NCBI GenBank assembly: GCA_023383035.1
Contig: JAHDYE010000011.1
Span: 1 to 33,847 of the forward strand
DNA: 33,847 bases
Origin: Burkholderiaceae bacterium
GTDB taxonomy: Bacteria > Pseudomonadota > Gammaproteobacteria > Burkholderiales > Burkholderiaceae_E
Direction: 5' to 3'
Every line of letters starts with the position of its first letter. The first letter of the stretch is position 1. Below are positions 2,110-32,152 of this stretch, piece by piece. Both the position numbers and the translations under genes were made by a program. The notes below the pieces were generated by a model that searched no databases, had not been told where the DNA came from, and saw nothing but the letters and a program-made list of their open reading frames with translations.

Positions 2110-3279
2110 CTACGAGACCGCTCTCGCGCGCACCCAGCCAGCGCCTCGCACGACCTCGCTCGCCTGCAGCAGGTTGGCGGGATCCCGGAACGGGTCGGCG
2201 CTGAACAGCGCGAGGTTGGCGCACGCACCGGGCCGGATGTCGGCCGATCCGGCACCCCAGAGCCGCCGCGGCAAGCTGCTCGCGGCACGCAGCGTCTGCT
2301 CCATCGACAGGCCGCACTCGAGCAGAAAGCGCAGCTCGTCGATCAGTCCGGCGCCGTGCTCGACGCCGGGGCTGCCCGCGTCGGATCCCGCCACCAGATC
2401 GACACCCAGTTGCGCTGCGCGCGCGACATGCTCGCGGTGCGCATCGAGGATTGCTCCGAGCTTGAGCACCGTGTCCGGCCCCCAGCCGGCAGCCTCGGGC
2501 CTGCGCCACTGGAAGTGCACCGGCGCGAAGGTCGGTACCCACGCCGTGCCCTGGTCGGCCATGCGGCGCAGCAGCTCCTCGGTCATGAAGAACCCGTGCT
2601 CGACCGAATCGATGCCCGCCTCGACCGCCACGGCGATGCCTTCGGTGCCGCTGCAATGCGCGAAGGTTCTCAGTCCGTGCTCGCGCGCGCAGCGCACGAT
2701 CAGTCGAAGCGATTCGACATCGAACTGCGGTGCGCCCTTGACGCTGCCCGACTCGAAATCGATGATGCCCGTCTCGATGATCTTCAGATCGTCGGAGGAG
2801 CGCGCGATGTCGCGCACCGCGGCGCGGATCTCGTCGTCGCTCGAGACCTCGCGCGCCATGAAGCTGCCGTATCGCTGGGGCCGGCGCAGCGCCTCGCCCG
2901 CCGATCGCACCTCCAGCACCTTCGACTCGCCGCGGATGCCGTGATTCACGCCGTAGCGGTCGCCCGCGTCGCGCACCATCGTGATTCCGTGCGAGAGCGT
3001 GCGTGCGACGTTGTCCCGCCCCACTTCCATCATCAACTCGAGCGGCGCATCCTGGTAGCGCGAACGCGCCTGGAAGTCGAGTTCGCCGCCGTCCAGGAAG
3101 AGATGGCAGTGCGCGTCGACCAGCCCGGGCATCACGAACGCGCATTGCGTCGTCGGGCCCGCGACCGCGTGCTCTCCCGGCGTCACCGCGGCAATGCGCT
3201 CGCCGTCGACGACGATGCTCACCGGCGAGTCGCGATAGCGCTCGCCGTCGAACCAGGCGCTGGCGATCAGGGTTCTCAC
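2110..3279 (-). CDS. Amidohydrolase family metal-dependent hydrolase (imidazolonepropionase-like)
   Basis: GTG start at 3279 overlapping the upstream stop. GLVDAHCHL (HxH), TFAHCSG, SVEHGFF and AGSDAGSPG metal-ligand motifs. Confidence 0.82.
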   Translation of the reverse strand: MRTLIASAWFDGERYRDSPVSIVVDGERIAAVTPGEHAVAGPTTQCAFVMPGLVDAHCHLFLDGGELDFQARSRYQDAPLELMMEVGRDNVARTLSHGITMVRDAGDRYGVNHGIRGESKVLEVRSAGEALRRPQRYGSFMAREVSSDDEIRAAVRDIARSSDDLKIIETGIIDFESGSVKGAPQFDVESLRLIVRCAREHGLRTFAHCSGTEGIAVAVEAGIDSVEHGFFMTEELLRRMADQGTAWVPTFAPVHFQWRRPEAAGWGPDTVLKLGAILDAHREHVARAAQLGVDLVAGSDAGSPGVEHGAGLIDELRFLLECGLSMEQTLRAASSLPRRLWGAGSADIRPGACANLALFSADPFRDPANLLQASEVVRGAGWVRARAVS

Positions 3280-4160
3280 GATTGCTGGTACAGATCGACG
3301 ATTGCCATCAGCGCATCGCTGTCGCGCAACTCGATGATGCGGCGAAACTCGCGCAGGACGAAGTTGTCTTCGGGCAGGAGCGCGTACTCGCGCCACGGCG
3401 TTCCGAGCACCGTGTCGAATCCGATCGGCATCGCCACGGTGAGAAACGCGCACTCGAGCTGGAACTTCAGGTCGGATCCGTCGGCCGCCTTGTCCGGCAG
3501 GTGCTGGGGCAGATTGGACAGCCCTCCCATGATGTGGATCCCTGCGAGCGCCGGATCGTCGCGCACCGCGCGGATACCCTCGAGCGCCATCTTGATCAGG
3601 CCCTCGGTGTCCGCGGCAAGCGTGCAGATGGAGACGTCGACGAAGAGGTCGGCGTTTCCGACGCCATAGCCTCCCTCCTTGAGTCGCTCGGCCATGCGCC
3701 GCGCGGTCTCGTGGACTTCGGCGCCGGTGCGGTTGTGCACCATCTTCCCGTCCCTGACCTGCTCGGAGGACATCAGGATCGCCTTGCACGGACGGATCTT
3801 CAGCAACTCGGCCAGTTCCCAACGCGATTCGGAGATGGAGTTGACCAGCGGCTTCCTCCCGCCCGCCCTGGCCTGATCGTAGGCCTGGAGCGCCGCCTCC
3901 TGTACCGCGAAGTCCGGGCAATCGAGCGACAGCGGCAGGTTCACCACTTCCTGAATCGCGCGCACGATCTCGACCATGAAGCGCGGGTCGCTGATCGCCT
4001 TGTCGCCGGCGTTCACGTTCAGGCAGGTCGCGCCGGCCTCGGCCTGACGCCGCGCGAGCTTCTGGATTCCGTCGATGTCCTCGTTGTCGAACAGTGCCTT
4101 CGTCGAGCGGAATCCGGGGTTGATGCGCTCGCCGATGATGCTCAGGCCGGGGATCGACAC
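3276..4160 (-). CDS. Pterin-binding (DHPS-like) methyltetrahydrofolate:corrinoid methyltransferase
   Basis: GTG start; SIIGERINPGFRSTK, GATCLNVNAGDKA, LSLDCPDF, KPLVNSISESRWE, GIHIMGGLSNLPQHLP typical of MeTr/AcsE/MetH pterin domains. Confidence 0.85.
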   Translation of the reverse strand: MSIPGLSIIGERINPGFRSTKALFDNEDIDGIQKLARRQAEAGATCLNVNAGDKAISDPRFMVEIVRAIQEVVNLPLSLDCPDFAVQEAALQAYDQARAGGRKPLVNSISESRWELAELLKIRPCKAILMSSEQVRDGKMVHNRTGAEVHETARRMAERLKEGGYGVGNADLFVDVSICTLAADTEGLIKMALEGIRAVRDDPALAGIHIMGGLSNLPQHLPDKAADGSDLKFQLECAFLTVAMPIGFDTVLGTPWREYALLPEDNFVLREFRRIIELRDSDALMAIVDLYQQS

Positions 4161-4171
4161 GGATGTTCTCC

Positions 4172-5587
4172 TCAGTGTTGTACAGGTTGCGCGCGCCCGG
4201 ACAGCAGCCCGGATTCGCTGACGATCTCCGCGATCAGGTGTTCGTTCTTCGGCGCCATCAGGTGGATCCCGGCGACCCCCTCGATCGCGCGAATCCTCAC
4301 GATCTGCTCGACGCAGATGCGCACGCCCTCTGCCTTCGGATCGCTGGCGCGCTCGATGCGCGTGATTAGCTCGTCCGGAATGTGCACTCCGGGCACGTGG
4401 TTGCGCATCCAGCGCGCCGAGCGCGCCGACGTCAACGGACCGACACCGACCAGGATGTGGCAGCGCTGGTGCAGGCCCTGCGCGCGCACCGCGTGCATGT
4501 AGCGTTCGAGCATCGGCACGTCGAAGCAGTATTGGGTCTGGACGAAGCGCGCGCCGGCGGCCACCTTGCGCCCGAGGCGCATCGGTCGCAGGTCGAAAGG
4601 CGGCACGAAGGGGTTGTCGACCGCGCCCAGGAACAGCCGCGGCCGACCGGTGAGCATGCGCCCCGAGCGATAGAGACCGTCGTCGCGCAGGCGCCGCGCG
4701 GTGTCGAGCAGCGAAACCGCGTCCAGGTCGAACACCGGCTTCGCGCCAGGGTCGTCGCCGTTGCCGATGCCGTCGCCGGTCAGGCACAGCAGATTGCCGA
4801 TTCCGAGTGCCGCGGCCGCGAGGATGTCGCCCTGGATCGCGATCCGGTTGCGGTCGCGACAGGTCATCTGCATCACCGGCTCCCATCCGTGGCGCGCGAG
4901 AATCAGCGAGACGCCCAGGCTGGACATGTGACAGTGCGCGCCGGGCGCGTCGGTGACGTTGAGCGCGTCGACCCATCCCTCGTAGTGGTGCGTGCGCGTG
5001 AGCACGTCGCCGGGGTCCGCCGAGTCGGGCGGCGAGCACTCCGAGGTCACCACGAAGGTTCCCGAACGCAGCAGCGACTCGAGGCGGCTCGCAGCGAGCG
5101 CTTCGTCGGACCGCGGGGGAGCCTGCGTGACCAGCGACGCCGGCCACGGTTCCTGGCGCAGTACGCGCAGCCAGCTCGACCGCCCCTGGTACTGGTGCTC
5201 GAGCGGCGGGTTCGGTTTCGTCGGCAAGGCACCCGCGCGCATCCGCGCGGCGCCGTGGTTCGCCTCGATCCAGACGCACTGCATCCCGGGCTCCACCTCG
5301 CAACCGCCGTCGGCGCGCACCCCGCCGCAGGGCCCGTTGCGCAGCGACTTCGGGCAGTTCATCGGGCAGGCCATCCCGGTGACCGAGAGCACGCACGCGC
5401 CGCACATCCTGCAGTCGAACAACGCGCCCTTCGCTGCGCGCTCGATCGCCGCCACCGGGCGTTCCAGCCTGGCATAGCCGATCAGGCGCGCGAGCGGACG
5501 CAGCGCATCGAGCGCCCTGTCGAGAACGCTGTAGACGGATTCGAGCAGCCTCGCGTGCCTGACGGCCCATCGGCGCAGTACGTACAC
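4172..5587 (-). CDS. Methylenetetrahydrofolate reductase with N-terminal Cys-rich MTHFR_C/MetV-like domain
   Basis: N-terminal CRMCGACVLSVTGMACPMNCPKSLRNGPCGG, then a MetF barrel (FVVTSECSPPDSADPGDVL, NVTDAP, QMTCRDRNRIAIQGDILAAAALGIGNLLCLTGD, FVQTQYCFD). Start codon uncertain. Confidence 0.85.
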   Translation of the reverse strand: MYVLRRWAVRHARLLESVYSVLDRALDALRPLARLIGYARLERPVAAIERAAKGALFDCRMCGACVLSVTGMACPMNCPKSLRNGPCGGVRADGGCEVEPGMQCVWIEANHGAARMRAGALPTKPNPPLEHQYQGRSSWLRVLRQEPWPASLVTQAPPRSDEALAASRLESLLRSGTFVVTSECSPPDSADPGDVLTRTHHYEGWVDALNVTDAPGAHCHMSSLGVSLILARHGWEPVMQMTCRDRNRIAIQGDILAAAALGIGNLLCLTGDGIGNGDDPGAKPVFDLDAVSLLDTARRLRDDGLYRSGRMLTGRPRLFLGAVDNPFVPPFDLRPMRLGRKVAAGARFVQTQYCFDVPMLERYMHAVRAQGLHQRCHILVGVGPLTSARSARWMRNHVPGVHIPDELITRIERASDPKAEGVRICVEQIVRIRAIEGVAGIHLMAPKNEHLIAEIVSESGLLSGRAQPVQH

Positions 5588-5646: not shown

Positions 5647-6732
5647 CTAGGGGTAGCGCCGGTACTTGTCGATGGCGCGCGACATGGCCCGGACGTTCTC
5701 CAGCTTGCAGTAGTCGGTGATGCTGTTGGCGCTGGAGATCATGTAGCCGCCGCCCTTGCCCACCTTCTCGATCCGGTCGCGCACTTCGGCTTCGACTTCC
5801 GCTTCGGTGCCGCGCGGCAGCGTGTAGTCGAGGTCGATGTTGCCGACGATGCAGACCCTGTCGCCGTACTTCGCCTTGAGCTGGTTGATGTCCATCGCCG
5901 CCGGCTGCACCGGATGAATGGCGTTCATTCCCAGCGTGAGCAGCCCGTCGAGCAGCGGGAACAGGTTTCCGTCGCTGTGGAAGATCCAGGGCTTTCGCAT
6001 CTCGTTGGCCACCAGCATCTGGTAGGGCTTCATGAACTCTTCCCACATCTCCGTGCTCACCCACGGCATCTTGTTGTCGGCGTGGTCGTCGTTCGCCCAG
6101 ATGAAGTCGAAGTCCATCTTGTTCAGGTGCTGCACGACGCGCGCCGACCACTCGGAGAAGCGCCGGTGCACTTCCTTCACCAGGTCGGGGTCGTCGTACA
6201 TCATGATCGAGAACACATCCAGCCCCATGCTCTCGAAGGTGCTCGCGCCGCCCAGCCTGATCCGGGCGAACACCGCGTAGTCCTCGCGGTACTTCTCGAT
6301 CCACTCGGCTACCTTCTCGTAGCGCGCCGGGTGGTCCGGGTCGGGCAGGAAGCGGTCGAACAGCTCGAGCGAATCGCGGCTGGTGAGCAGCCCGTGCTTG
6401 ACGTAGGTGCGCCCGTCGGACGGATCGGTACCCATCTCGGCGATCCAGGGCGGAGTGAAGTCGAAGGTGATGCGCTGCGGGTAGTACCAGGCCTCCTTGC
6501 CCGTCGTTCCGGTCGTCTGGATCGACTGGCCGTCGCTCGCGCTCAGGCCGCTGGGGAAGTGATAGCCGAAACCGTCCATGCCCAGCGCCCGGCACAGCTC
6601 GCCGGGCGTGAAATCGGTGCGCCCGCCCATCACCCGCACCTGCATTCCTTCCTCGATGTCGTTCTCGATCCACGGCACCATGTCGGGCTGACCGCGCTTC
6701 AACGCAGTCAGTACGCGTTCTCTCGGTGTCAT
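5647..6732 (-). CDS. Uroporphyrinogen decarboxylase (UroD)-family methyltransferase
   Basis: MTPRERVLTALKRGQPDMVPW start; PWIFHSDGNLFPLLDGLLTLGMNAIHPVQPAAMD; GNIDLDYTLPRGT. Sits beside its corrinoid protein. Confidence 0.85.
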   Translation of the reverse strand: MTPRERVLTALKRGQPDMVPWIENDIEEGMQVRVMGGRTDFTPGELCRALGMDGFGYHFPSGLSASDGQSIQTTGTTGKEAWYYPQRITFDFTPPWIAEMGTDPSDGRTYVKHGLLTSRDSLELFDRFLPDPDHPARYEKVAEWIEKYREDYAVFARIRLGGASTFESMGLDVFSIMMYDDPDLVKEVHRRFSEWSARVVQHLNKMDFDFIWANDDHADNKMPWVSTEMWEEFMKPYQMLVANEMRKPWIFHSDGNLFPLLDGLLTLGMNAIHPVQPAAMDINQLKAKYGDRVCIVGNIDLDYTLPRGTEAEVEAEVRDRIEKVGKGGGYMISSANSITDYCKLENVRAMSRAIDKYRRYP

Positions 6733-7394
6733 CGCCCTGCCTCCGCGCGCGCGCTGTCGACCATCCTGTTGCAGGCCTGGACGCACTCGTACGCGTCCTC
6801 GCTGTAGAAATCGGCGCCGATCTCGGCGGCGTACTTGTGCGTGAGCGGAGCTCCGCCCACGCCGACCCGCACCGACGAACGCAGCCCCGCTTCCTCGAGC
6901 GCCGCGATCGTGCGGCGCATGCCTTCCATGGTGAGCGTGATCAGCGCGCTCATCAGCACGAACTGCGGCGCCTCCTTGCGGATCGCCTCGATGAACATGT
7001 CGGCGGTCACGTCGACGCCCAGGTCGACGACCTCGTAACCACCGCCTTCGAGCATCATCCGCACGATGTTCTTGCCGATGTCGTGAAAGTCGCCCTGCAC
7101 GGTGCCCAGCACCACCTTGCCGCGGGTCGCCGCCGCCTCGCCGACCAGATGCGGCTTGAGCACCGGAACGACCTCGGTCATCGCGCGCGCCGCGACCATC
7201 ATCTGCGGCAGGAAGAACTCGCCCGACGAGTACTTCTCGCCCACCACCGACATCGCGGCGATCAGGCCGTCCTTCATGATCGCGCCGGGATCGACTCCTT
7301 CGTCGAGCGCGGCGCGGGTCGCCGCCACCGCCTCGTTCTTCCTGCCCCGGATCACCCAGTCCTTGATCGTCGCTATCGCGTCGGACATCGCCAT
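6729..7394 (-). CDS. Corrinoid (B12-binding) protein, MtbC/MtaC-like
   Basis: GTVQGDFHDIGKNIVRMMLEGGGYEVVDLGVDV (DxHxxG cobalt-ligand motif), VLMSALITLTM, VGVGGAPLTHKYAAEIGAD. Confidence 0.92.
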   Translation of the reverse strand: MAMSDAIATIKDWVIRGRKNEAVAATRAALDEGVDPGAIMKDGLIAAMSVVGEKYSSGEFFLPQMMVAARAMTEVVPVLKPHLVGEAAATRGKVVLGTVQGDFHDIGKNIVRMMLEGGGYEVVDLGVDVTADMFIEAIRKEAPQFVLMSALITLTMEGMRRTIAALEEAGLRSSVRVGVGGAPLTHKYAAEIGADFYSEDAYECVQACNRMVDSARAEAGR

Positions 7395-7460: not shown

Positions 7461-8780
7461 CTAGCGAAAGCCCAGCAACTGGCTCGGCAGCCAGGTGACG
7501 AGCGCGGGAAAGATCATCACGATCACCAGCGTGAGGCACTGCAGCACGATGAACGGCGTCACACCCCTGTACATGTCACGAATCGTGATCTCCTCCGGCG
7601 CCACCGCGCGCAGATAGAACACCGCGGGAGCCATCGGCGGGGTCAGGTACGAGGTCTGGATCATGATCAGGAACAGGGTCAGGAACCACACCGCATCGAA
7701 CCCGGCCGCCACGGCCAGCGGCGTGAACAGCGGCACGAAGATCAGCACGATCGAGATCCAGTCGAGGAAGAAGCCAGCGATGAAGATCACGAACATCATC
7801 ATCCACAGCAGCACCCACGGCGAGAGTTGCGCCTTGCTGATCAGCGCACTGGCGGTGGTGATCCCGCCCCCGCCGATGAACACGCCGGTGAACAGCGTTC
7901 CGGCGAGCAGCACCGTCATGATCATCGCAGTGATCTTGAGCGTCTTGATCAGCGCCTCGTACAGGCCGGGAATGCTGAAGCGCCCGTAGAGCATCGTCAG
8001 GAACAGGGAGGCCAGCGCGCCGAGTGCCGCCGCCTCGGTCGGCGAGGCGAGGCCGAGCAGGATCGAACCCAGCACGGCGAAGATCATGAACAGCGGCGGC
8101 ACCAGGTTGCGCGAGGAGATCCACAACTTGCGACCGAATCCGGGCTCGTCGGGTTCGCGCGGGATGCGCGGGCCCTTCTCGGGGTAGACCAGGCAGATGA
8201 AAACGATGTAGACCAGGTACAACCCGGCCATGAGCAGGCCGGGAAACGCCATTCCGTAGAACAGGTCGCCGACCGACACGTTCGCCATCGGACCCATCAC
8301 CACCGCCACCACCGACGGCGGGATGATCGTTCCCAGAGAGCCACCCGCGCAGATGCTGCCCGAGATCAGCGCCTTGTCGTACTTGTAGCGCAGCATGATC
8401 GGAATCGTCAGCATGCCGACTACCGATTCGGTCGCGCCGATCACGCCGCTCGACGCCGCGAAGATCACGCACATGAAGATGGTCGCGAGCGCCAGTCCGC
8501 CCGGCAGGCGCCGCGTCCAGATGTGGATCGCCTCGAACAGCTTGTCGGCGATTCCGGACTTCTCCAGCATCGCACCCATGAACACGAACATCGGCACTGC
8601 GGCGAACACGAAGTTCGACGCGATGTCCTCGATCTTGTCGACGAACTGGAACACGACGTTGCTGCCGAAGATCATCAGGCCGAAGATCACGGCGGTGATC
8701 ATCATCGCGAAAGCGACCTGGACGCCCAGGAACATCAGCAGGAACGCAAGCGGCAACATCAGGAACGGCAGGTAGCTCAT
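7461..8780 (-). CDS. TRAP transporter large permease (DctM)
   Basis: Hydrophobic; ICAGGSLGTIIPPSVVAVV, SPTEAAALGA, LTPPMAPAVFYLRAVAPEEI. Confidence 0.92.
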   Translation of the reverse strand: MSYLPFLMLPLAFLLMFLGVQVAFAMMITAVIFGLMIFGSNVVFQFVDKIEDIASNFVFAAVPMFVFMGAMLEKSGIADKLFEAIHIWTRRLPGGLALATIFMCVIFAASSGVIGATESVVGMLTIPIMLRYKYDKALISGSICAGGSLGTIIPPSVVAVVMGPMANVSVGDLFYGMAFPGLLMAGLYLVYIVFICLVYPEKGPRIPREPDEPGFGRKLWISSRNLVPPLFMIFAVLGSILLGLASPTEAAALGALASLFLTMLYGRFSIPGLYEALIKTLKITAMIMTVLLAGTLFTGVFIGGGGITTASALISKAQLSPWVLLWMMMFVIFIAGFFLDWISIVLIFVPLFTPLAVAAGFDAVWFLTLFLIMIQTSYLTPPMAPAVFYLRAVAPEEITIRDMYRGVTPFIVLQCLTLVIVMIFPALVTWLPSQLLGFR

Positions 8781-9286
8781 GCTGCGTTTCCGCGGTTGAG
8801 AGTGAGTCTGCGCACGCACTTGGTCACCTCGACGATGACCTGCAGGGCGAATAGCACGAAGGCGACCAGGAACACGACGCGAAACGGCCACACCGGAAGG
8901 TTGAGCGCCGACTGTCCGCTGGTCTCGCCGCTCCTGTACCCGTCGACCAGGTAGCGGTACATCTGGTAGCTGAGCCAGATCAGCAGCGGCAGCATGACGG
9001 TGTAGCCGACCAGGTCGATCGCCGCGCGGGTGCGCTCGGAGAACTTGCCGCTGAACACGTCGATGCGGATGTGCGCGTCCTCGCGCAGGGTATAGGCCAT
9101 GCCGAGCAGGAAGTGCGAGCCGGTGAGCAGGTATCCCACCTCGTAGGCCCAGATGGTCGGCGCGCCCATCGCGTAGCGGGCGAATACCTCGTAGCAGGTC
9201 GCGAGCACCAGAGGGACCAGGACCATCGCCGCGGCGATGCCGACGCTTCCGGTGACACGTTCGATCGACTTCGTGAGCGCATTCAT
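8777..9286 (-). CDS. TRAP transporter small permease (DctQ)
   Basis: ATCYEVFARYAMGAPTIWAYEVGYLLTGSHFLLGMAYTLREDAHIRIDVF; 4-nt overlap with dctM. Confidence 0.9.
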   Translation of the reverse strand: MNALTKSIERVTGSVGIAAAMVLVPLVLATCYEVFARYAMGAPTIWAYEVGYLLTGSHFLLGMAYTLREDAHIRIDVFSGKFSERTRAAIDLVGYTVMLPLLIWLSYQMYRYLVDGYRSGETSGQSALNLPVWPFRVVFLVAFVLFALQVIVEVTKCVRRLTLNRGNAA

Positions 9287-9491: not shown

Positions 9492-10553
9492 TCAGGCCCT
9501 CGTCTTGACCGTGCGCCAGCCGGACGCGCCTTTCCAGAGCGCGTCCATCTCCTTCTGACTCGCGAGCGCCTTGCCGAACCAGGGAAGGTTTCCTTCCTTG
9601 GCCGTCTTCTCCGCCCACTTCAGGCCGATGTCGCGAGCCGCGTACTGCACCTCGGGCGAGAGTTCGATCAGCGTATTGCCCGCCTTCTTGTAGAAATCGA
9701 GCGCTTTGGCGTCCTCCTGGCCGACCTTCATCCAGAAATCCACCGTCACGAGCCTGGCCACCGTTTCGACCAGTTTCTGGTCGGCGGGCGTGAGCTTGGC
9801 CCAGGCCTCCTTGTTGATCGCCAGCTCGAAGGGCGCTGTGGGCTGGTGAACGCCAGGGTAGATGATGTACTTGGCGATCTTGTGAAAGCCCATCGAGATG
9901 TTCTCGTACATCGTGCCCCACTCGGTGGCGTCGATCGCGCCGCGCTCGAGCATCGGGTACACGTCGCCGCCCGCGGTCGTCACCGGCGCTGCGCCGAGAT
10001 CCTTGGCCATGTCCAGCCACGCGCCTGCGGTGCGCATCTTCAGGCCCTTGAGGTCGGCCAGCGTCTGGACCGGCTTTCTCGAGTGCAGGAAAGCCTCGGC
10101 GGTACGGGCCGCCAACGGGAACGAGATGATGTCGGCGGTTTCCTCCCGAAACTTGCGCTGCATCTCGACGCCGCCGGCCTGGTACAGCCAGTGCAGCATC
10201 CGTTCGGTGTCGAAGGAGCCCGCGTACCCGCCGAACAGTACCGTCGTCGGATCCTTGCCCCAGTCGTAGCCCATCCAGGTGTGGCCGCACTCGGCGATTC
10301 CGTTCTTGACCGTCTCGGGCACCTTCAGTGCGTTGCCCAGCGCGCCACCCGGGAACACCTCGACCTTGAAGCGTCCGCCGGAAAGCTCGCCCATCTTCTC
10401 GGCGAATGCCTTCGCGCCGAGGTCCATCAACGGGCCGCCGCCCCATCCGGTGGCCATCTTCCAGTTGATCGTGGACTGCGCCTGCGCCGGCTGCGCAAGC
10501 GTCGCGCCGGCAGTCGCGATCGCACCGGCCTTGAGAAAATCGCGTTTCTTCAT
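9492..10553 (-). CDS. TRAP transporter substrate-binding protein (DctP)
   Basis: MKKRDFLKAGAIATAGATLAQPAQAQ signal peptide (KRDFLK, possibly Tat-like); INWKMATGWGGG...GGRFKVEVFPGGALG; LKGLKMRTAG. Confidence 0.9.
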   Translation of the reverse strand: MKKRDFLKAGAIATAGATLAQPAQAQSTINWKMATGWGGGPLMDLGAKAFAEKMGELSGGRFKVEVFPGGALGNALKVPETVKNGIAECGHTWMGYDWGKDPTTVLFGGYAGSFDTERMLHWLYQAGGVEMQRKFREETADIISFPLAARTAEAFLHSRKPVQTLADLKGLKMRTAGAWLDMAKDLGAAPVTTAGGDVYPMLERGAIDATEWGTMYENISMGFHKIAKYIIYPGVHQPTAPFELAINKEAWAKLTPADQKLVETVARLVTVDFWMKVGQEDAKALDFYKKAGNTLIELSPEVQYAARDIGLKWAEKTAKEGNLPWFGKALASQKEMDALWKGASGWRTVKTRA

Positions 10554-10595: not shown

Positions 10596-11408
10596 CTAGG
10601 CTGCTTGCTCGGCGACCGGGCCGTCGAGCGAGACCGGCGCGTCGGGCCGTCGGTACTTCTCGATCACCGGTTTCAACTCCGGTTTGATGTGGTCTTCGCT
10701 GTAGCCGTTGAAGATGGTTCCGACCAGGCCACGATCGAGGTCGCTCGTCCCCATCAGCCAGTCGGCGATCGGGAACGTCAGGTTCATGTTGTGCCCCATC
10801 ATGATTCCGTAGTTGTGGTGCGCCGTGTGATGACGCCTGATCGTGTTGATGAAGGGCGTGTGGCGCACGAACCAGTTGTCATGGACGTGGCAGCAGTAGT
10901 GGAAGCTCTCATATATCAGGTACTGCCCGACGATCGTCACCATCAGGATGTAGCCGGCGTTCGGGTTGATCAGCGCGCCGAGCACGAGCGCGAACGGCAC
11001 GCCCAGCGCCATGAAGGTGAACAGCGCACGCCACGGAAAGAAGATGATCCGCCATTCGCGCGCAGTGTCCACCGTCATCTCGTTGTCGGTGAAGTACTGG
11101 TGGTGCTGACGCGTGTGGCGGTCGTAGATCGCGCGCAGCGCCCACACGTCGATCAGACGATGCATCACGTTCTTGTGCATGTACCACTCGAACAGGTTCG
11201 AGAAGACGAACACCGGCACCACGAGCAACCACTCCCATCCGGCGTTGTCGAGGCGCATGACGCACCACCAGATCACCGCGATGCCCACGACGTAGATCAC
11301 GGCGATGTGCAGCGGGCCGTTGTAGGCGGGGTGGATCTCCGAGCGGTACTGCTCGCGAAACGCCACTTGGCGGGGCGACGGGTTGTGCCGTTCGATCAGT
11401 TCTGCCAT
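10596..11408 (-). CDS. Fatty acid hydroxylase/sterol desaturase family di-iron protein
   Basis: Histidine boxes HKNVMH, HTRQHH, HYCCHVH, HHTAHH among transmembrane segments. Confidence 0.82.
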   Translation of the reverse strand: MAELIERHNPSPRQVAFREQYRSEIHPAYNGPLHIAVIYVVGIAVIWWCVMRLDNAGWEWLLVVPVFVFSNLFEWYMHKNVMHRLIDVWALRAIYDRHTRQHHQYFTDNEMTVDTAREWRIIFFPWRALFTFMALGVPFALVLGALINPNAGYILMVTIVGQYLIYESFHYCCHVHDNWFVRHTPFINTIRRHHTAHHNYGIMMGHNMNLTFPIADWLMGTSDLDRGLVGTIFNGYSEDHIKPELKPVIEKYRRPDAPVSLDGPVAEQAA

Positions 11409-11514: not shown

Positions 11515-13440
11515 TCACGCCGCCAGCAGACGCTTGGCTTCGTTGACTGCCTGCACCGCGTCGGCGGCGAATCCGTCGGCGCCGATCTGGCGCGCGAACT
11601 TGTCGCTGACCGGCGCCCCCCCGACGAACACCTTGCGCCCGTCGCGCAGCCCCCGCGCGTCGAGCTCGCGGATGATCGCGGGCATTTCCATCATCGTCGT
11701 GGTAAGCAGCGCCGACAACCCGATCACGTCCGGGCGATGCTCGGCGACCGCGTCGCAGAACGCATCGCGCGCGACGTTCACCCCTAGGTCGATCACCTCG
11801 AATCCGACCCCGCGCAGCATCGTCACCACCAGGTTCTTGCCGATGTCGTGCATGTCGCCCTTGACCGTGCCGATCAGCACGCGCCCGCGCTTCTCGTTCG
11901 ATCCGCCCGCCGCCAGGTGCGGCTCGAGCACGCTCACCGCGCTGCTCATCGCGCGTGCCGCGAGCAGCACCTCCGGAATGAACGCCTCGCCGCTCGCCAT
12001 GCGCTTGCCCACCACGTCGATCGCCGCGATCAGCCCCTTGTCCAGGATGTCGCGCGCCGCCACGCCCTGCGCGAGCAGTTCGGCGACATGCTCCCTGATC
12101 GCCAGGTGCTTGCCCTTGCTCACGTCCTGGCGCACCTGCGCGTAGATCTCCTCGCCCGCCGCTTCGCCCGCCTCGGCCGCGGCCGACGCCGCGACCGCGC
12201 CGCCTGCACCGGCCGTCGGCAGCGGCCGGAACGCCCCCGCCTTCAGCGGCAGCGACCCCTCGCGCTCGACCCGCTCGCCGATGCGCTGCAGCCGCGAGAA
12301 GATCGCCCCGGGCGGCACCTGGTCAGCCACCCCGACCAGGTAGCGCGTTCCCGGCGCGACCGCACGAAACAACTCGTCCAGGTAGGCCTCGAAGTCCGCC
12401 TCGCTGGTCTCGGGCAACACCACCGTCGAGGGCACGCCTCCGAACAGCGTGAGCTTCGGGCTCCAGCGCCGGTAGTACTCGGCCAGGCTCAGCTTCGTCA
12501 TCGGCGCCGGACAGATCGACTCGGCGATGTGCATCCCCGACTCGCGGATCAGGCCCATCAGCCCCTCGTTCTCGCCGTCGGTGTGGCACATCAACAGCTT
12601 GCCGCGCGCCTCGAGCGCCGTCGAAACCTTGCGCAGCCACGGACTGATCTCGCGCTCGAAGTAGGGCGGGTACGTGATCATGTCGTCGTAGTTCGCGCCC
12701 CAGAATACGACCTCGGCCGGCGAATCGCACTGGATCGCGAGCATCCGCTCGAACAGCGGCTCCATCTGCGAGGCCAGCCGCTGGAGCTTGTCGTAGTGGT
12801 CCTTGTAGTGGAAGAAGAACTGCGTCGAGTCGATCAGGTCGCGCTGGATCTCGTTGACCGGCGACGCGCCGAACGGACCCATCGAGACGGCCACGCCGTC
12901 GTCGCGCATCTCCTCGGCGGACCAGCGGTTGAAACGTTCGGGGTTGAGCTTCAGGTCGAGGTGTTCGTACAGGCACCCTGCCGCCTCGTAGTCGTCCACG
13001 GACTTGATCAGCGGTTCGACGATGGTCGGGATCGTCGTGCCGAGCCGCTGCGCCTCGAGGTCATAGTGCACGGTGGTGCTGACCATGCCCAGCGGCGTGT
13101 GGTACTCGACCCGCATTCGCGGACCGTCGTGTACCACCTTGACCTCGACCTTGTTCGAGATCACCAGGTCGTAGACCGTATCGCGGCTGCCGAACAAGCC
13201 GATGCCGCGATGCAGGTACATCGGCTGGATCGCCGGGTCGAGCTGGTCGTCGGCAAAGCGAAAGTACAGCGCCCAGCCCTCGGCGCGCGCGATCTCGTTC
13301 ATCGCGCGTCCGGCGTGCTGCGCGGGCAGCGTGCCGCAGGTATGGTTGGCGAGATACCACAGGTCCAGCCGCGGAACGTAGGGCAACCGGTCGACCTGCT
13401 CGCCGCGAAACGCAGCGAGCATGCGCGCCTTGTGGTTCAT
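11515..13440 (-). CDS. Fusion of UroD-family methyltransferase and C-terminal corrinoid-binding domain (CmuA-like architecture)
   Basis: N-terminal MNHKARMLAAFRGEQVDRLPYVPRLDL and LLMCHTDGENEGLMGLIRESGMHIAESICP; Ala-rich linker; C-terminal GTVKGDMHDIGKNLVVTMLRGVGFEVIDLGVNV. Confidence 0.85.
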   Translation of the reverse strand: MNHKARMLAAFRGEQVDRLPYVPRLDLWYLANHTCGTLPAQHAGRAMNEIARAEGWALYFRFADDQLDPAIQPMYLHRGIGLFGSRDTVYDLVISNKVEVKVVHDGPRMRVEYHTPLGMVSTTVHYDLEAQRLGTTIPTIVEPLIKSVDDYEAAGCLYEHLDLKLNPERFNRWSAEEMRDDGVAVSMGPFGASPVNEIQRDLIDSTQFFFHYKDHYDKLQRLASQMEPLFERMLAIQCDSPAEVVFWGANYDDMITYPPYFEREISPWLRKVSTALEARGKLLMCHTDGENEGLMGLIRESGMHIAESICPAPMTKLSLAEYYRRWSPKLTLFGGVPSTVVLPETSEADFEAYLDELFRAVAPGTRYLVGVADQVPPGAIFSRLQRIGERVEREGSLPLKAGAFRPLPTAGAGGAVAASAAAEAGEAAGEEIYAQVRQDVSKGKHLAIREHVAELLAQGVAARDILDKGLIAAIDVVGKRMASGEAFIPEVLLAARAMSSAVSVLEPHLAAGGSNEKRGRVLIGTVKGDMHDIGKNLVVTMLRGVGFEVIDLGVNVARDAFCDAVAEHRPDVIGLSALLTTTMMEMPAIIRELDARGLRDGRKVFVGGAPVSDKFARQIGADGFAADAVQAVNEAKRLLAA

Positions 13441-13722: not shown

Positions 13723-14439
13723 TCAGACGTCGGTGTCGAGCGTCGCCCGGGTGAAACTCTCGATGTGATCGATCAGCGCGTCGGTGGCGCGTCCCGCGCC
13801 GGCCTCGTCACCCTCGGCGATCGCCTCGGCGATCGCCGCATGCAGATTGGCCGTGACCGGCATGTCGGCGGCCTGCTGGTAGTGCACGTACCAGAAACGG
13901 CGCGAGAGCGGCTGCATCAGACGCATCGCCGCCGCGGCGAACTCGTTGCGCGCCGTCATGATCGCGAGCTCGTTGTACTCGTTGTCGGTGCGCATGAAGC
14001 CGACGTCGTCGTTCGCCTTGGCGGCCTTTCTGAAATTGACCGCGAGCGCGGCGAACCGCGCGCGTTCGCGCGGCTGAGCGCGCCGCGCCGCGCTGCGCGA
14101 CACCAGCCGTTCGATCTCGCGGCGAACCTCGAGCATCCCGAGCTGGCGCTTCACATTGATGTCCGAAACGATCACTCCGCGCCGCGGCAGGATCTGCACC
14201 AGCTTCTCGCGCGACAATCGTTGCAGCGCCTCGCGAATCGGCGTGCGACCGATTCCCAGCATTTGCGACAGTTCGGCTTCCGACACCGCACTACCGGGCG
14301 CCAGCTTGAGCGTGACGATCATCTCCTCGAGCGTGCCGTAGGCGCGATCGGTCAGCGTTTCGCCTGCGGAACCCGGAGCGCGAAGCGCCGGCTTCGTTCC
14401 GTCGCGCACGGTTGCCGCAACCTTGCGCGCGGACGTCAA
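13723..14439 (-). CDS. GntR-family (FCD-type) transcriptional regulator
   Basis: SEAELSQMLGIGRTPIREALQRLSREKLVQILPRRGVIV wHTH; C-terminal effector domain with D-N-H residues. Likely TTG start overlapping the upstream TGA; GTG further in is possible. Confidence 0.88.
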   Translation of the reverse strand: MTSARKVAATVRDGTKPALRAPGSAGETLTDRAYGTLEEMIVTLKLAPGSAVSEAELSQMLGIGRTPIREALQRLSREKLVQILPRRGVIVSDINVKRQLGMLEVRREIERLVSRSAARRAQPRERARFAALAVNFRKAAKANDDVGFMRTDNEYNELAIMTARNEFAAAAMRLMQPLSRRFWYVHYQQAADMPVTANLHAAIAEAIAEGDEAGAGRATDALIDHIESFTRATLDTDV

Positions 14440-15305
14440 ACCTGCCTCCGTTTCTCCAGCATTTCGAGGAAGCGCTCGTACTCGCGCATGTCCACGCCAT
14501 AGCTGTGCTCGTCGTCCGGGAAGCTGCCTGCCTTCACTTCGGCCACGTACTGCTTGAGGCCGCCCACGGCCACTTCCGTCAGGTTGGCGAAGCGCTTCGT
14601 GAACTTCGGCTTGAAGTCGGTGAACACGCCGAGCAGGTCGTACGAGAGCAGGATCTGCCCGTCGGTGCCGACTCCCGCCCCGATGCCGATCGTCGGGATC
14701 TCCAGCTGGGCCGAGATCGCGGCGGCGATCTTGGCCGGCACCGCTTCGAATTCCAGCATGAAGCAGCCGGCATCCTGGATCGCCAGCGCGTCCTCGAGGA
14801 TCTTCATCGCCGCCTCGGCGGTCTTTCCCTGGATCCTGAATCCGCCGAAGGTCGCGACCGTGTGCGGCGTCAGCCCGATGTGCGACGCGGTCGGGATGCC
14901 CGCATCGACCAGCGCCTTGAGAATGTGCGCCTGGCTCTTGCCGCCTTGCGGCTTGACCGCGTCGCATCCGGCCTCCTGCATGAACCTCGTGGCGTTGGTC
15001 AGCGCGCGGTCGACGGTGTTGTAGCTCTGGTAGGGCATGCAGCCGAGAACGAAGGTGTTCATCGCGCCGCGGCGCACCGCCTGCGAGTGCAGCACCATCA
15101 TGTCCATCGTCGCGGGAATCGTGTTCGGGTGCCCATGTGCGGTCATCGCCAGGCTGTCTCCGACCACACACACGTCCACTCCCGCCGCTTCGGCCCACTT
15201 GGCCGATGTGTAGTCGAGCACCGAGGTGTAGACCATCTTCTCGCCGGTCTTCTTCGACTCCCGGATCTCTGGAATCGTGCGCTTCTTGCGCTCGCCCTGA
15301 TTCAT
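14436..15305 (-). CDS. PanB (3-methyl-2-oxobutanoate hydroxymethyltransferase)-family protein, divergent
   Basis: DYTSAKWAEAAGVDVCVVGDSLAM, AVRRGAMNTFVLGCMPYQSY, HIGLTPHTVATFGGFRIQGK, IPTIGIGAGVGTDGQILLSYDLLGV, EVKAGSFPDDEHSYG. Confidence 0.85.
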   Translation of the reverse strand: MNQGERKKRTIPEIRESKKTGEKMVYTSVLDYTSAKWAEAAGVDVCVVGDSLAMTAHGHPNTIPATMDMMVLHSQAVRRGAMNTFVLGCMPYQSYNTVDRALTNATRFMQEAGCDAVKPQGGKSQAHILKALVDAGIPTASHIGLTPHTVATFGGFRIQGKTAEAAMKILEDALAIQDAGCFMLEFEAVPAKIAAAISAQLEIPTIGIGAGVGTDGQILLSYDLLGVFTDFKPKFTKRFANLTEVAVGGLKQYVAEVKAGSFPDDEHSYGVDMREYERFLEMLEKRRQV

Positions 15306-15477: not shown

Positions 15478-16776
15478 ATGACAGCCACCGCCATCCGTTC
15501 GCTGCACGCCCGCCAGGTCCTCGATTCGCGAGGCCGCCCCACGGTCGAAGTCGACATCGTCCTCGAAGACGGCTCGCCGGGCCGCGCCTCGGTGCCCTCG
15601 GGCGCCTCCACCGGCGCGGCCGAGGCGTACGAGCTGCGCGACCGCGAGCCCGCGCGCTACGCCGGACTCGGCGTGCGACGCGCGGTGGCCAACGCCAACG
15701 GCGAGATCGCCGACGCGCTGCGCGGCTGCGACGCCTGCGACCAGACCGGACTGGACCGGCGACTCGTCGAGCTCGACGGCACGCCGCGGCTCGAGCGCCT
15801 GGGCGCCAACGCGATCCTCGGCGTCTCGCTGGCGGCCTGCCGGGCCGCAGCGGTATCGCTACGCCAGCCGCTGTACCGGCGCATCGCGGACCTGGCCGGC
15901 ACCGGTGCGCTCACGATGCCGATGCCGATGGTCAACATCCTGTCGGGCGGCCTGCACGCCGGCCGCGGGATGGACGTGCAGGACTTCCTCGCGATCCCCG
16001 CCAGCGCGCGTTCGATCGCCGAGGCGATCGAGATGGTCGCCGCGGTGCGCGCGGCCGCCAGCGAAGCGATGACGCAGCGCGGCCTGCCCACGCTGCTGGC
16101 CGACGAGGGCGGATTGAGCCCGGGTCTGGCGACCGGCCGCGAGGCGCTGGAGCTGTTGGTCGAATCGATCGCCCGCGCAGGCCTGGCAGCGGGCCGCGAC
16201 GTGAGCATCGCGATCGACGTGGCGGCGACCTCCCTGAAGGGCCCGGCACCCGGCCGCTACCGACTCGCCCGGGAGGGCCGCGATGCGAGCAGCGCCGAGA
16301 TGGTCGAGCTGGCGGCCGGTTGGGTGCGCGACTTTCCGGTGGTGTCGATCGAGGACGCGCTCGACGAAGAAGACTGGACCGGCTGGCGGGCGTTGACCGA
16401 GCGACTGGGCAGCTCCGCGCAGCTGGTGGGCGACGACCTGTTCACCACGAACCCGGCACGGGTGGCGCGCGGCATCGCCGAAGGCGTGGCCAACGGCGTG
16501 CTGATCAAGCTGAACCAGAACGGCACATTGAGCGGCACGCTGGACGTGATGCGCCGGGCCCGCGAGGCGGGCTATGCGCCGGTCGTTTCGGCGCGCTCCG
16601 GAGAGACCGAGGACCCGTTCATCGCCGACCTGGCGGTGGGCACCGGCGCCGGCCAGATCAAGATCGGCTCGCTGCGCTGCGGCGAGCGACTCGCCAAGTA
16701 CAACCAGTTGCTGCGCATCGAGGAGGAAAGCGGCGCGCCCTTTGCCGGCACCTCGGCGCTGGCCGGCCGGCGGTGA
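15478..16776 (+). CDS. Enolase-superfamily paralog (phosphopyruvate hydratase-like) with substituted active-site positions
   Basis: VLDSRGRPTVEVD, SIEDALDEEDW, LVGDDLFTTNPARV, VLIKLNQNGTLSGTLD, SARSGETEDPFIADLAVGTGAGQIKIGS. Confidence 0.88.
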   Translation: MTATAIRSLHARQVLDSRGRPTVEVDIVLEDGSPGRASVPSGASTGAAEAYELRDREPARYAGLGVRRAVANANGEIADALRGCDACDQTGLDRRLVELDGTPRLERLGANAILGVSLAACRAAAVSLRQPLYRRIADLAGTGALTMPMPMVNILSGGLHAGRGMDVQDFLAIPASARSIAEAIEMVAAVRAAASEAMTQRGLPTLLADEGGLSPGLATGREALELLVESIARAGLAAGRDVSIAIDVAATSLKGPAPGRYRLAREGRDASSAEMVELAAGWVRDFPVVSIEDALDEEDWTGWRALTERLGSSAQLVGDDLFTTNPARVARGIAEGVANGVLIKLNQNGTLSGTLDVMRRAREAGYAPVVSARSGETEDPFIADLAVGTGAGQIKIGSLRCGERLAKYNQLLRIEEESGAPFAGTSALAGRR

Positions 16777-17822
16777 GCAAGGACGCTGCGGCGAGCCCGC
16801 CGCCGACGACGAGCGATCCGGAGGTCGCAGTCGATGTGCAGGTCCTGATCTCGGGCTTCCTGGTCCGCCACGGCCTGGCAGCGGCCGGCGACACCCTTCG
16901 CTGCACGCCGCTCGAGGGCGGCGTGTCCTCGGACATCTGGCGGATCGACACCGGCCTCGGCACGGTCTGCGTGAAGCGCGCGCTTCCGAAGCTCAAGGTG
17001 GCGGCAGACTGGCGCGCCCCGATCTCGCGCAACACCTACGAATGGGCCTGGCTCGAGTTCGCGGCACGCCATATGCCGAAGGCGGTGCCGGCACCGCTGG
17101 CGCATGACCCGCAGGCCGGTCTGTTCGCGATGGCCTGGCTCGACCCCGGGCGGTACCCCGTCTGGAAGCGACAACTGCTCGACGGCCGGGTCGAGCCCGA
17201 GACCGCCCGGTCGGTCGGCACGGTCCTCGGCCGGATCCACTTCGCCAGCGCCCACGACCCGGCACTGGCCGCCGCATTTCCTACGCTGTCGAACTTCCAC
17301 GCGTTACGGCTGGAGCCCTACCTGCTCGCGACGGCGACCCGGCATCCGGATCTCGCGACGCGCCTGCACGGCCTGGCCGAGCGCACCGGCTCCAAGCAGA
17401 TCGCCCTGGTCCACGGCGACGTGAGTCCCAAGAACATCCTGGTGGGCCCGGACGGGCCGATCCTGCTCGACGCCGAGTGCGCCTGGTACGGCGACCCGGC
17501 CTTCGACATCGCCTTCTGCCTGAACCACTTGTTGCTGAAGGGTCTGGTCCGCTCCGAGCTGCGCGGCAAGCTCACCGCGAGTTTCGAGGCCTTCGTGAAG
17601 GCCTACTTCGCGGAAGCCCGCTTCGAACCGCGCTCGGACCTGGAGGCGCGGGCCGCGGCGCTGCTGCCGGCGCTGATGCTGGCCCGCGTGGACGGCAAGT
17701 CGCCGGTCGAATACCTGCGCGACGAAGCGCGGCGCGATACGGTCCGGCACTTCGCCCGCCCGCGCATCGCCGCCGCGCCCAGCACCCTCGAGGAGGTCGT
17801 CCGCGACTGGATCTCGGTCTGA
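16773..17822 (+). CDS. APH/choline-kinase-fold small-molecule phosphotransferase
   Basis: LVHGDVSPKNILVGPDGPILLDAECAWYGDPAFDIAF kinase motifs; GTG start overlaps the enolase-like stop (GTGA). Confidence 0.85.
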   Translation: MSKDAAASPPPTTSDPEVAVDVQVLISGFLVRHGLAAAGDTLRCTPLEGGVSSDIWRIDTGLGTVCVKRALPKLKVAADWRAPISRNTYEWAWLEFAARHMPKAVPAPLAHDPQAGLFAMAWLDPGRYPVWKRQLLDGRVEPETARSVGTVLGRIHFASAHDPALAAAFPTLSNFHALRLEPYLLATATRHPDLATRLHGLAERTGSKQIALVHGDVSPKNILVGPDGPILLDAECAWYGDPAFDIAFCLNHLLLKGLVRSELRGKLTASFEAFVKAYFAEARFEPRSDLEARAAALLPALMLARVDGKSPVEYLRDEARRDTVRHFARPRIAAAPSTLEEVVRDWISV

Positions 17823-22353: not shown

Positions 22354-23541
22354 TCAGACCCGGCTGACCGCGACGACCGCCGAGACGAATGACTCGACCT
22401 GCCCTTCCTGCAGGCCGGCAATGTTGACCCGTCCGTCGTCGACCATGTAGATCGCATGCTCGCGGCGCAGCCGCTCGACTTGCGCGGCAGTGGTGCCGAT
22501 CAGCGAGAACATGCCCCGGTGCCTGCGCAGGAAGTCGTACCGGTTGGAGTTCGAGTGTTCGGCGAAGACCCTCGCCAGCTCCGAGCGCAGCGCGACGATC
22601 CGGTCGCGCATGGTGCCGAGCTCTTCGCGCCACTGCGCCGAAAGCGCCGGATCCTGCAGGATGATGCGTACCAGCGACCCGCCGTGATCGGGCGGCATCG
22701 AGTACGCGATGCGCGCGCACGTGAGCAACTGGCCCCGGGCGATCCCGGCCCGCGCGGCTGTGTCCGCCAACACGAAGGCGCAGCCGGTTCGCTCGCGGTA
22801 GATGCTGAAGTTCTTGCAGCTCGAGACCGCGACCAGCATCTCGGGCAGCCGGCGTGCGAAGAGACGCACCGCATGGGCATCCTCGTCCAGGCCGTCGCCG
22901 AAGCCCTGGTAAGCGAGGTCGACGAACGGAACGAGCCCACGCGCGAGCACGAGCTCGCAGACGCGCTCCCAATCGTCTTCGGCGAGACTCGCCCCGGTCG
23001 GATTGTGGCAGCAGCCGTGGAGCAGCACGACGTCGCCCGGCGCTGCATCGTGCAGGCCGGCGAGCATCGCCTCGAGCTGCACGCAGCTGCCGACCGGGTC
23101 GAAATAGGGGTAAACGCGCGTCGCCAGCCCGGCGTCGCTGAAGATCGCATGGTGGTTGACCCAGGTGGGGTCTGGGAGCCAGACCGAGGCCTGCGGGCGC
23201 GCGCGAGCGATCAATGCCGCGAGGATCCGCAAGGCGCCCGCTCCGCCCGGAGTTTGCGCGGAGGCGAGCCGATCCACCGGTGCGTCATCGCCGAGGACGA
23301 GTTTGGCGATGCTGCCGCAGTAGGCTGGATCGCCGCCCGGGCCGAGATAGGCCTTCGTATCCTCGGTCTCGTAGAGTCGGCGCTCGGCTTCGCGCACCGC
23401 GCGCATCACCGGCGTGCGCCCCGCACTGTCTCGGTACACACCCACCCCCAGATCGATCTTGTGGGGCCGCGGGTCGCCGCGGAACAGGTCGATCAGCGAG
23501 AGGATCTTGTCCGGGGGCGAGGGCTGCAGGAGTTCGAACAT
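22354..23541 (-). CDS. Class I aromatic/aspartate aminotransferase (TyrB/AspC-like)
   Basis: KIDLGVGVYRDSAGRTPVMRAVREAE, HGCCHNPTGASL, VSSCKNFSIYRERTGC (PLP Lys region), GRVNIAGL. Confidence 0.9.
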   Translation of the reverse strand: MFELLQPSPPDKILSLIDLFRGDPRPHKIDLGVGVYRDSAGRTPVMRAVREAERRLYETEDTKAYLGPGGDPAYCGSIAKLVLGDDAPVDRLASAQTPGGAGALRILAALIARARPQASVWLPDPTWVNHHAIFSDAGLATRVYPYFDPVGSCVQLEAMLAGLHDAAPGDVVLLHGCCHNPTGASLAEDDWERVCELVLARGLVPFVDLAYQGFGDGLDEDAHAVRLFARRLPEMLVAVSSCKNFSIYRERTGCAFVLADTAARAGIARGQLLTCARIAYSMPPDHGGSLVRIILQDPALSAQWREELGTMRDRIVALRSELARVFAEHSNSNRYDFLRRHRGMFSLIGTTAAQVERLRREHAIYMVDDGRVNIAGLQEGQVESFVSAVVAVSRV

Positions 23542-23556
23542 GGTGAGCCTGGCGAG

Positions 23557-24975
23557 TCAGGTGGGTTGGCGGTCGACCAGCTTGCCCGGGTTGAGCACGC
23601 CGACAGGATCGAAGGCGAGCTTGATCGCACGCATGATCCCGATTTCCGCGGGCGAGAGCATTCGTGCCAGCGCGTCGCGCTTGCCTTGCCCGATGCCGTG
23701 CTCGGCGCTTACGGTTCCACGCAGCGACAGCGCGATGTCGTCGATCATGCGCGACAACTCCTCCGAACGCATGCGGAACTCCGTGTCCGCCATGCCCGGC
23801 GGGGGCAGGACGTTGAGGTGGATGTTGCCGTCGCCGACGTGGCCGAACGCGACCGGCCTGCAGCGCGGAAGGCGGTGCTCGAGTTCCGACTCGACACGCC
23901 GGATGAACTCAGGGGAACTCGCAACCGGAACCGCCGTATCGGTCTTCACGATGTGGAACCGGGCCTCACCCATCGCCACGGCGATGCCCTCGCGAAGGGC
24001 CCACATCGAGCGCCGCTGCGCAATCGAACTCGCGACGCTGCCGTCGAGCAGCAGGCCGGCCTCCATCGCCCGATCGAGCAGCGACTGGAAGGCGGCGTCC
24101 AGGTCCATGAAGCGGCTCGTGCTCTCGGCCTCCAGCAGCGCCAGCCACGGCGTCGGGCGGTCGAGCGGCTCGCGCCTCGCCTTCACGTGTGCGAAATGGA
24201 ATTCCACCGCGGGACGCGACATCAGCTCGAACGCGGAGACCGTCTCTCCCAGCACCGATCTCGCCAGCAGGAAGAGATCGAGCGCCTTCTGTGGCGACTC
24301 GACTCCGAACACGCCGGTCGCGAACGCGATCGGCGCCGGGCGCAGCTTCAGTGCCACCGCGGTGACGACCGCGAGCGTTCCCTCCGAGCCGACGATCAGC
24401 GAGCGCAGATCGTACCCCGCATTGCATTTGCGCAGCACGGACGGCGGCCCGAGCACGCTTCCGTCGGCGAGCACCGCTTCGACGCCGAGCACCTGGTCGC
24501 GAGCCATGCCGTAGCGGAGGACGTTGTTGCCGCCGGCATTCGTGGCAACGTTGCCGCCGATCGAACTGGACCCCGCCCCGCCGTGATCCAGCCCGAGCAG
24601 GCGGTTTACGCCGAGCGCAGCCTGCTGGAGTTCGTGAAGGGTGCAGCCCGCGTCGGCCACCATCACGTCGCCTACCGTGTCGATCGAACGGATGCTGCGC
24701 ATGCGCTCGACCGACAACAGCACGGCGTCCTGTCCGGGCAGCGGCAGGGCGCCGCCCGCGAACCCGGTTCCGCCACCCCGGGGAACCAGCGCAACGCCAG
24801 CCGCGCGGCAGGCGGCCACGACACGCGAGACCTGTTCCGTGTCGGCTGGACGCGCGACACAGAGGATGCCGGCATCGACACGGTGGACGCTGTCGCAGCG
24901 GTACGCGCCGAGATCCCCGGGCTCGACGAGCAGCCCCGCGCCGCCCAGGATCTCGCGCAGCCTCGCGACGATCAC
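23557..24975 (-). CDS. FAD-binding 2-hydroxyacid dehydrogenase (GlcD/D-lactate dehydrogenase family)
   Basis: VPRGGGTGFAGGALPL, GGNVATNAGGNNVLRYGMARDQVLGVEAVLADG, GHVGDGNIHLNV, SAEHGIGQGKRD. Confidence 0.88.
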   Translation of the reverse strand: MIVARLREILGGAGLLVEPGDLGAYRCDSVHRVDAGILCVARPADTEQVSRVVAACRAAGVALVPRGGGTGFAGGALPLPGQDAVLLSVERMRSIRSIDTVGDVMVADAGCTLHELQQAALGVNRLLGLDHGGAGSSSIGGNVATNAGGNNVLRYGMARDQVLGVEAVLADGSVLGPPSVLRKCNAGYDLRSLIVGSEGTLAVVTAVALKLRPAPIAFATGVFGVESPQKALDLFLLARSVLGETVSAFELMSRPAVEFHFAHVKARREPLDRPTPWLALLEAESTSRFMDLDAAFQSLLDRAMEAGLLLDGSVASSIAQRRSMWALREGIAVAMGEARFHIVKTDTAVPVASSPEFIRRVESELEHRLPRCRPVAFGHVGDGNIHLNVLPPPGMADTEFRMRSEELSRMIDDIALSLRGTVSAEHGIGQGKRDALARMLSPAEIGIMRAIKLAFDPVGVLNPGKLVDRQPT

Positions 24976-24994
24976 GACCGTCGGCCCTCGAAGG

Positions 24995-26611: not shown

Positions 26612-26625
26612 GAGTTCTTCTCTCT

Positions 26626-27798: not shown

Positions 27799-27807
27799 GT
27801 CCCCGTC

Positions 27808-29016: not shown

Positions 29017-29023
29017 TCCCCTC

Positions 29024-31536: not shown

Positions 31537-31569
31537 TTGAATCTCCGCGGAAAGCCGTCGCGTCGGGGA

Positions 31570-32133: not shown

Positions 32134-32152
32134 CTCTGCCCCCCGCGGCCGG

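Follow-up and report, generated by a model that had tools for sequence, protein, structure and literature searches.

A UroD–corrinoid fusion protein in a TRAP-fed cluster for predicted demethylation in a Burkholderiaceae bacterium

Does a protein that joins a UroD-type methyltransferase to a corrinoid domain, in the order known from CmuA, mark its host as a degrader of halomethanes? This question was raised by a locus of a Burkholderiaceae bacterium in a window of 33,847 nucleotides, which is the whole contig and ends at position 33847. The gene of the fusion protein (FUS) was located at 11515–13440 on the minus strand, with the ATG at 13440 and the stop at 11515, and AGGAGAGACC was found 5' of the ATG. 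The translation was uninterrupted and comprised 641 aa; the single ORF described in an earlier note is real, but the 642 aa given there, without a strand, included the stop. Full-length homologues sharing 45–70% identity were present in about two dozen MAGs, which indicated that the ORF did not arise by chance.

FUS comprises a UroD-fold methyltransferase (residues 1 to ~400), an Ala/Gly linker and a corrinoid domain (residues ~430–640), as assigned from domains, predicted fold and the family alignment. The corrinoid half matched the Pfam models B12-binding_2 (435–506, 60 bits) and B12-binding (519–632, 97 bits). It contains the string GDMHDIGKN, of which GDMHDIG is the base-off motif D-x-H-x-x-G, with D529, H531 and G534 invariant in the family. 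The UroD half was barely above the cut-off of PF01208 (24.6 vs. 23.9 bits), and a PDB search with a profile of 14 FUS UroD domains returned no chain at E ≤ 10, CdmB included. Because this half is highly divergent, the structure was predicted with AlphaFold from an alignment of 27 relatives. The model had a mean pLDDT of 83, and disorder was confined to the low-complexity linker (~406–429). Its N-terminal part matched human UroD and MtaA (Foldseek, E about 7e-9), and its C-terminal part matched MttC, MtmC, MetH and the Desulfitobacterium corrinoid protein 4JGI. This confirmed that FUS is a genuine fusion of a UroD and a corrinoid domain, and the arrangement first read from the sequence (UroD, linker, GDMHDIGKN-bearing corrinoid domain) was recovered by Pfam and by the predicted fold.

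For comparison with the cmu cluster, the proteins of plasmid pJM105 (L038) were used as the reference. This plasmid carries cmuB, cmuC, cmuA, fmdB, paaE, hutI, metF, purU, and folD of Hyphomicrobium sp. MC1 origin and supports growth on CH3Cl (PMC4949252). CmuA showed the same order in one chain, an N-terminal UroD-fold methyltransferase followed by a C-terminal corrinoid domain, at a similar length (614 aa vs. 641 aa in FUS), so that the CmuA-like layout proposed earlier was borne out. The corrinoid halves were 35% identical, and the blastp match was confined to them. The UroD domain of FUS gave no significant blastp match to CmuA and an hhalign probability of 1.8, and the MtaA/CmuA model TIGR01463 (cut-off 235 bits) gave no FUS match at E ≤ 0.01, with a CmuA control at 507.8 bits. 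The UroD domain did align with the second UroD protein of its own locus (profile comparison, probability 95.7). Bona fide CmuA homologues are 64–84% identical to the CM4 protein (PMC4197683).

The surroundings of the two genes followed a common logic, transfer of a methyl group to H4F and the presence of an MTHFR, and differed in components. The cmu cluster has the MtrH-type CmuB, whereas the FUS cluster has a pterin-binding MT2, its own RACo activator and a TRAP importer. No member of the MtrH/CmuB family (PF02007) was detected in the source genome, which is 83% complete (CmuB control 161 bits). The earlier note had named metF and a hutI-like gene as parts of known cmu loci and seen both here. 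The MTHFR is indeed present, as a fusion of DUF5981/MetV and MetF, but the amidohydrolase is not HutI: with 30.6 bits it stayed far below the cut-off of 298, which the cmu HutI passed with 342 bits. HutI, PaaE and FmdB are absent from the FUS cluster, unlike in cmu. Between CmuC and the second UroD protein of the locus, similarity was weak and local (23.7%, 76 aa, E 0.006).

The active sites also differed. The H-x-C motif and a later Cys of MtaA (PDB 4AY7), which we take to be zinc ligands, are represented in CmuA, where both cysteines are retained. In the FUS family this H-x-C...C motif was replaced by H286-x-D288-G-E290-N291 together with D373, all of which were invariant in the 28 aligned members. 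His286, Asp288 and Asp373 fall at the positions of the MtaA zinc His, Cys and Cys, D373 at the second Cys, in an alignment that is transitive across very divergent sequences. The H-x-D-G motif is common to FUS and the other UroD methyltransferase of the locus (HSDG).

In the UroD-domain tree, the FUS family was monophyletic (100/100), with a long stem branch, and CmuA was placed alongside MtaA and related proteins, in a region of the tree with only moderate support. A clade of FUS and CmuA was rejected for this domain (AU test, p-AU 0.027). The corrinoid-domain tree had long branches and did not reject such a clade (p-AU 0.29). The corrinoid domains of three fusion proteins (L032, L033, L035) stood apart from those of the other fusions in the tree, which may hint at domain exchange, although a single clade was not rejected (AU p 0.52).

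A distant CmuA, acting as a halomethane:corrinoid methyltransferase-dehalogenase in a diverged locus, would account for the domain order, the length, the related corrinoid domains with their unrejected clade, and the MTHFR and extra UroD protein nearby. We consider it very improbable, given the lack of UroD kinship in BLAST and profile searches, the missing TIGR01463 match and zinc cysteines, the rejected UroD clade, and the lack of a CmuB family member in the genome and of HutI in the locus; furthermore, a dedicated TRAP importer would be unexpected for a methyl halide gas. Orthology with CmuA was rejected on the same blastp, hhalign, AU, CmuB, HutI and TIGR01463 results. Judged from sequence, FUS resembles CmuA in layout and follows a similar logic but does not belong to the Cmu family, and its UroD domain indicates a fusion independent of that in CmuA. 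The comparisons suggested in the earlier note, BLAST, HMM and phylogeny against verified CmuA and a comparison of active sites, went against the specific Cmu link and left the fusion itself intact. The methyl donor of FUS is very likely different from that of CmuA, as that note had allowed.

On the minus strand, the genes read leftward from ~15.3 kb begin with a PanB-like paralogue (14436–15305), a GntR/FCD transcriptional regulator (13723–14409, with its domains in the C-terminal part of a longer ORF), FUS, and a membrane protein of the fatty-acid-hydroxylase superfamily (10596–11408), a conserved neighbour assigned by synteny and a weak PF04116 match (31.2 bits vs. a cut-off of 31). These are followed by the TRAP solute-binding protein DctP (9492–10553), the small membrane subunit DctQ (8777–9286) and the large membrane subunit DctM (7461–8780), a stand-alone corrinoid protein (6729–7394), and the stand-alone UroD-type methyltransferase with the HSDG motif (5647–6720, start approximate). 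The run continues with the MetV-MetF fusion (4172–5587, start approximate), the pterin-binding methyltransferase or MT2 (3276–4160, PF00809), which is of the AcsE/MetH and not the MtrH/CmuB type, the amidohydrolase (2110–3279), which is Xaa-Pro-dipeptidase-like and common to few relatives, and a RACo-type reductive activator of corrinoid proteins with 2Fe-2S and ASKHA domains (201–2084). A complete set of MT1, corrinoid protein, MT2, activator and MTHFR is thus carried in one gene run. On the plus strand, a divergent enolase paralogue (15478–16776) is paired with an APH-fold small-molecule kinase (16773–17822), whose nearest NCBIfam model is methylthioribose kinase.

One scan of GTDB genomes recovered 29 loci, and no named member of the FUS family was found in the literature. 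Its occurrence was sporadic, in Burkholderiales MAGs, one Hyphomicrobiaceae MAG (L017), Desulfobacterota, and others. It was found in 3 of 399 genomes of the order and 2 of 74 of the family, and in the phylum-wide sample (399 genomes) only the source genome itself carried it. In the genus g235, all four tested genomes contained it. The Burkholderiales MAGs (64–70% identity) and the alphaproteobacterial L017 retain the PanB, GntR, fatty-acid-hydroxylase-like, TRAP, corrinoid, UroD and MT2 genes in an altered order, the Desulfobacterota loci keep the set in part, and the folate MT2 and the RACo activator are kept in the clusters of FUS relatives. Because the set recurs in Burkholderiales, is rearranged in L017 and persists partly in Desulfobacterota, the linkage appears functional rather than residual. 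The g235 loci carry the full set, then DUF1638 and PhyH, and then homologues of the plus-strand genes at 15478–17822 in line, which indicated that the kinase and enolase belong to the FUS system. The clusters of G785 and G478 are flanked by genes for formate dehydrogenase and succinate/malate-CoA ligase on the upstream side and by a formate-H4F ligase gene on the downstream side, as would be expected if methyl-H4F were oxidised and assimilated. In G826, one of the four g235 genomes, RACo and MetVF read through as a single 1105-aa frame (L060 1477–4794), and the FUS gene is split into two overlapping frames; these are either assembly errors or real gene changes.

FUS defines its own family, and fusions of this kind also occur elsewhere. 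The gut bacterium Vescimonas fastidiosa pMM35_01 encodes an uncharacterised one (WP_329958977.1, in the region L040 5479–8520) with the same domain order. Its corrinoid domain is 44% identical to that of FUS, and the UroD halves share ~20% identity, a weak but detectable relationship (profile probability 93.4). It adjoins an amidohydrolase, as does the FUS locus, but its neighbours are glycine-cleavage genes, unlike those of FUS. Another UroD family in Desulfobacterota (cluster 7) was fused to a corrinoid domain in L023 (3874–5727), L026 (5125–6900), and L031 (5038–6855) and split from it in L022 (4225–5987), L024, L036, and L037 (8183–9922), a pattern that points to repeated fusion or fission. 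Since the same family occurs both fused and split, a UroD–corrinoid fusion is not diagnostic in itself.

What, then, does the FUS cluster do? We propose, as the probable reading, that FUS is an MT1 with its own corrinoid carrier that demethylates an imported methylated acid and passes the methyl group to H4F for C1 oxidation or assimilation. Domains, fold, motif conservation, synteny and the lack of a CmuB family member and of HutI are results of the analysis, and the order of reactions, the substrate class and the accessory roles are deduced from them; the mechanism is modelled on analogous characterised systems (PMC13222342, PMC9768040). A methylated polar compound would enter through the TRAP transporter, and its methyl–heteroatom bond would be activated in the UroD barrel, probably by His286-x-Asp288-Gly-Glu290-Asn291 and Asp373 and not by a zinc-thiolate. 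Cobalamin, bound through the Asp-x-His531 of the C-terminal domain, would attack the methyl group as Co(I), and the resulting methyl-Co(III) would swing to the pterin-binding MT2 and be demethylated there to give CH3-H4F. MetV-MetF could oxidise CH3-H4F to CH2-H4F, for energy or assimilation, and the RACo protein would re-reduce cobalamin that had been oxidised to Co(II). The fusion presumably holds carrier and enzyme together. The stand-alone UroD and corrinoid pair may serve as an additional MT1, acting on a different methyl group or on an intermediate, and the kinase, the altered enolase and the PanB-like enzyme would act on the carbon skeleton left after demethylation. This scheme assigns no role to the amidohydrolase or to the oxygenase-like neighbours (fatty-acid hydroxylase, PhyH).

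The Cdm, Odm, Mtv and Mto systems are built from the same four components, a UroD-superfamily MT1, an MtaC/MtgC-like corrinoid protein, a folate MT2 and an ATP-dependent activator. The FUS cluster differs from them in that MT1 and carrier are fused and in its extra importer and enolase, PanB and kinase paralogues, and the UroD domain is too divergent for a profile match to CdmB. FUS could accordingly be an aryl-methyl-ether O-demethylase of the MtvB/OdmB/MtoB kind fused to its corrinoid protein and acting on lignin-derived methoxybenzoates: O-demethylases have the same set of MT1, corrinoid protein, MT2 and RACo activator (PMC13222342), two UroD enzymes of the locus have the H-x-D-G motif in common, and aromatic acids are reported as possible TRAP cargo (PMC3610893). 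This appeared quite unlikely, as the conserved neighbours include no aromatic-degradation genes, DctP is of the TakP/lactate kind, and neighbours of the enolase, kinase, glycerate kinase and LarA types suggest aliphatic hydroxy acids.

The best PDB match of DctP was TakP (3.5e-47), whose TRAP type takes 2-oxoacids, and the next was the lactate-binding TTHA0766. Six residues of TakP bind sodium-pyruvate (PMC1839085). The carboxylate- and cation-binding Tyr100, Arg177, Glu214, and Trp215 are kept in DctP, and Gln156 and Glu240 are replaced by Glu and Gln, respectively. In Desulfobacterota, members of the FUS family adjoin enzymes of 2-hydroxyacids, namely LarA-type proteins, MOFRL glycerate 2-kinase and FAD-linked oxidases.

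Two paralogues in the cluster carried altered catalytic positions. In the enolase paralogue, the His of SHRSGE was Ala in the window and in all g235 cluster copies, whereas the second, canonical enolases of g235 keep the His. The E of QEF was also changed to D in paralogues co-located with FUS clusters (window 15478–16776, L052 11348–12670, L054 11918–13225). In PanB of E. coli, D84 and E114 are Mg-ligand positions. In the PanB paralogue these were Cys or Ala (Cys in the window) and Gln, respectively, in every cluster copy covering both positions, whereas the other PanB of the genome is canonical. Altered PanB paralogues near a FUS gene were observed in the window (14436–15305), with homologues in L009–L017, L034, L051, L053, and L059. 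The changed ligands suggest a different hydroxymethyl- or aldol-type reaction.

DctP, the Desulfobacterota neighbours and the enolase and PanB changes all fit a 2-hydroxy- or 2-oxo-acid skeleton with a methyl group, though they do not pin down the compound. A gas such as CH3Cl would account for none of these features. The imported compound is most likely a methylated small 2-hydroxy-, 2-oxo- or 2-alkoxy-carboxylate, for example an O-methylated sugar-acid-like molecule, a class deduced from the neighbours and one solute-binding protein.

The far end of the contig carries genes of another kind. The C-terminal part of a urocanase-family protein (33202–33847) matched the NCBIfam model of thiourocanate hydratase with 390 bits over 202 of 535 positions, against 248 for hutU, and is a candidate ergothioneine/thiohistidine catabolic gene. 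Beside it, the minus strand at 22354–33187 encodes a HutH-type aromatic amino acid lyase, an aminotransferase, an FAD-linked oxidase, a class III CoA-transferase, two acyl-CoA dehydrogenases and a second TRAP transporter, possibly a thio-imidazole degradation module. A link between this module and the corrinoid cluster was considered and set aside, as proximity was its sole support: protein clustering and inspection revealed none of these genes beside FUS in other genomes.

It is also conceivable that the O-methyl assumption is wrong and that FUS acts on a methylated N or S compound of the betaine, sulfonium or thio type. The best models for its corrinoid domain were MtgC (glycine betaine) and MtbC, both under their cut-offs, and the thiourocanate-hydratase fragment and the HutH-type lyase lie in the second half of the window. 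Corrinoid-domain similarity, however, does not set specificity, the module is ~7 kb away with mostly opposite-strand genes between, protein clustering and inspection placed none of its members beside FUS in other genomes, and the ligand residues of DctP are consistent with a carboxylate that bears oxygen at C2. We regard such a substrate as unlikely.

With an O-methylated 2-hydroxy- or 2-oxo-acid as the substrate, the cluster could be extended to a whole catabolic pathway for C1 and skeleton, and we put this forward tentatively. FUS would demethylate the acid delivered by the TakP-like transporter, and the neofunctionalised enolase and ketopantoate hydroxymethyltransferase would handle the skeleton and the released C1, in bacteria that also have O2-dependent enzymes.

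FUS is a conserved, uncharacterised fusion of known type, a UroD MT1 with a corrinoid protein, in a TRAP-fed cluster for predicted demethylation. CmuA is the best-known case of the UroD–corrinoid fusion, but the fusion exists outside CmuA as well and should not by itself be read as a sign of halomethane degradation. The FUS proteins delimit an uncharacterised family of putative demethylases, spread thinly over several phyla and accompanied by a conserved importer and by unusual paralogues of enolase and PanB. Because of this importer and these paralogues, the substrate should be findable, and the periplasmic binding protein can be screened on its own.
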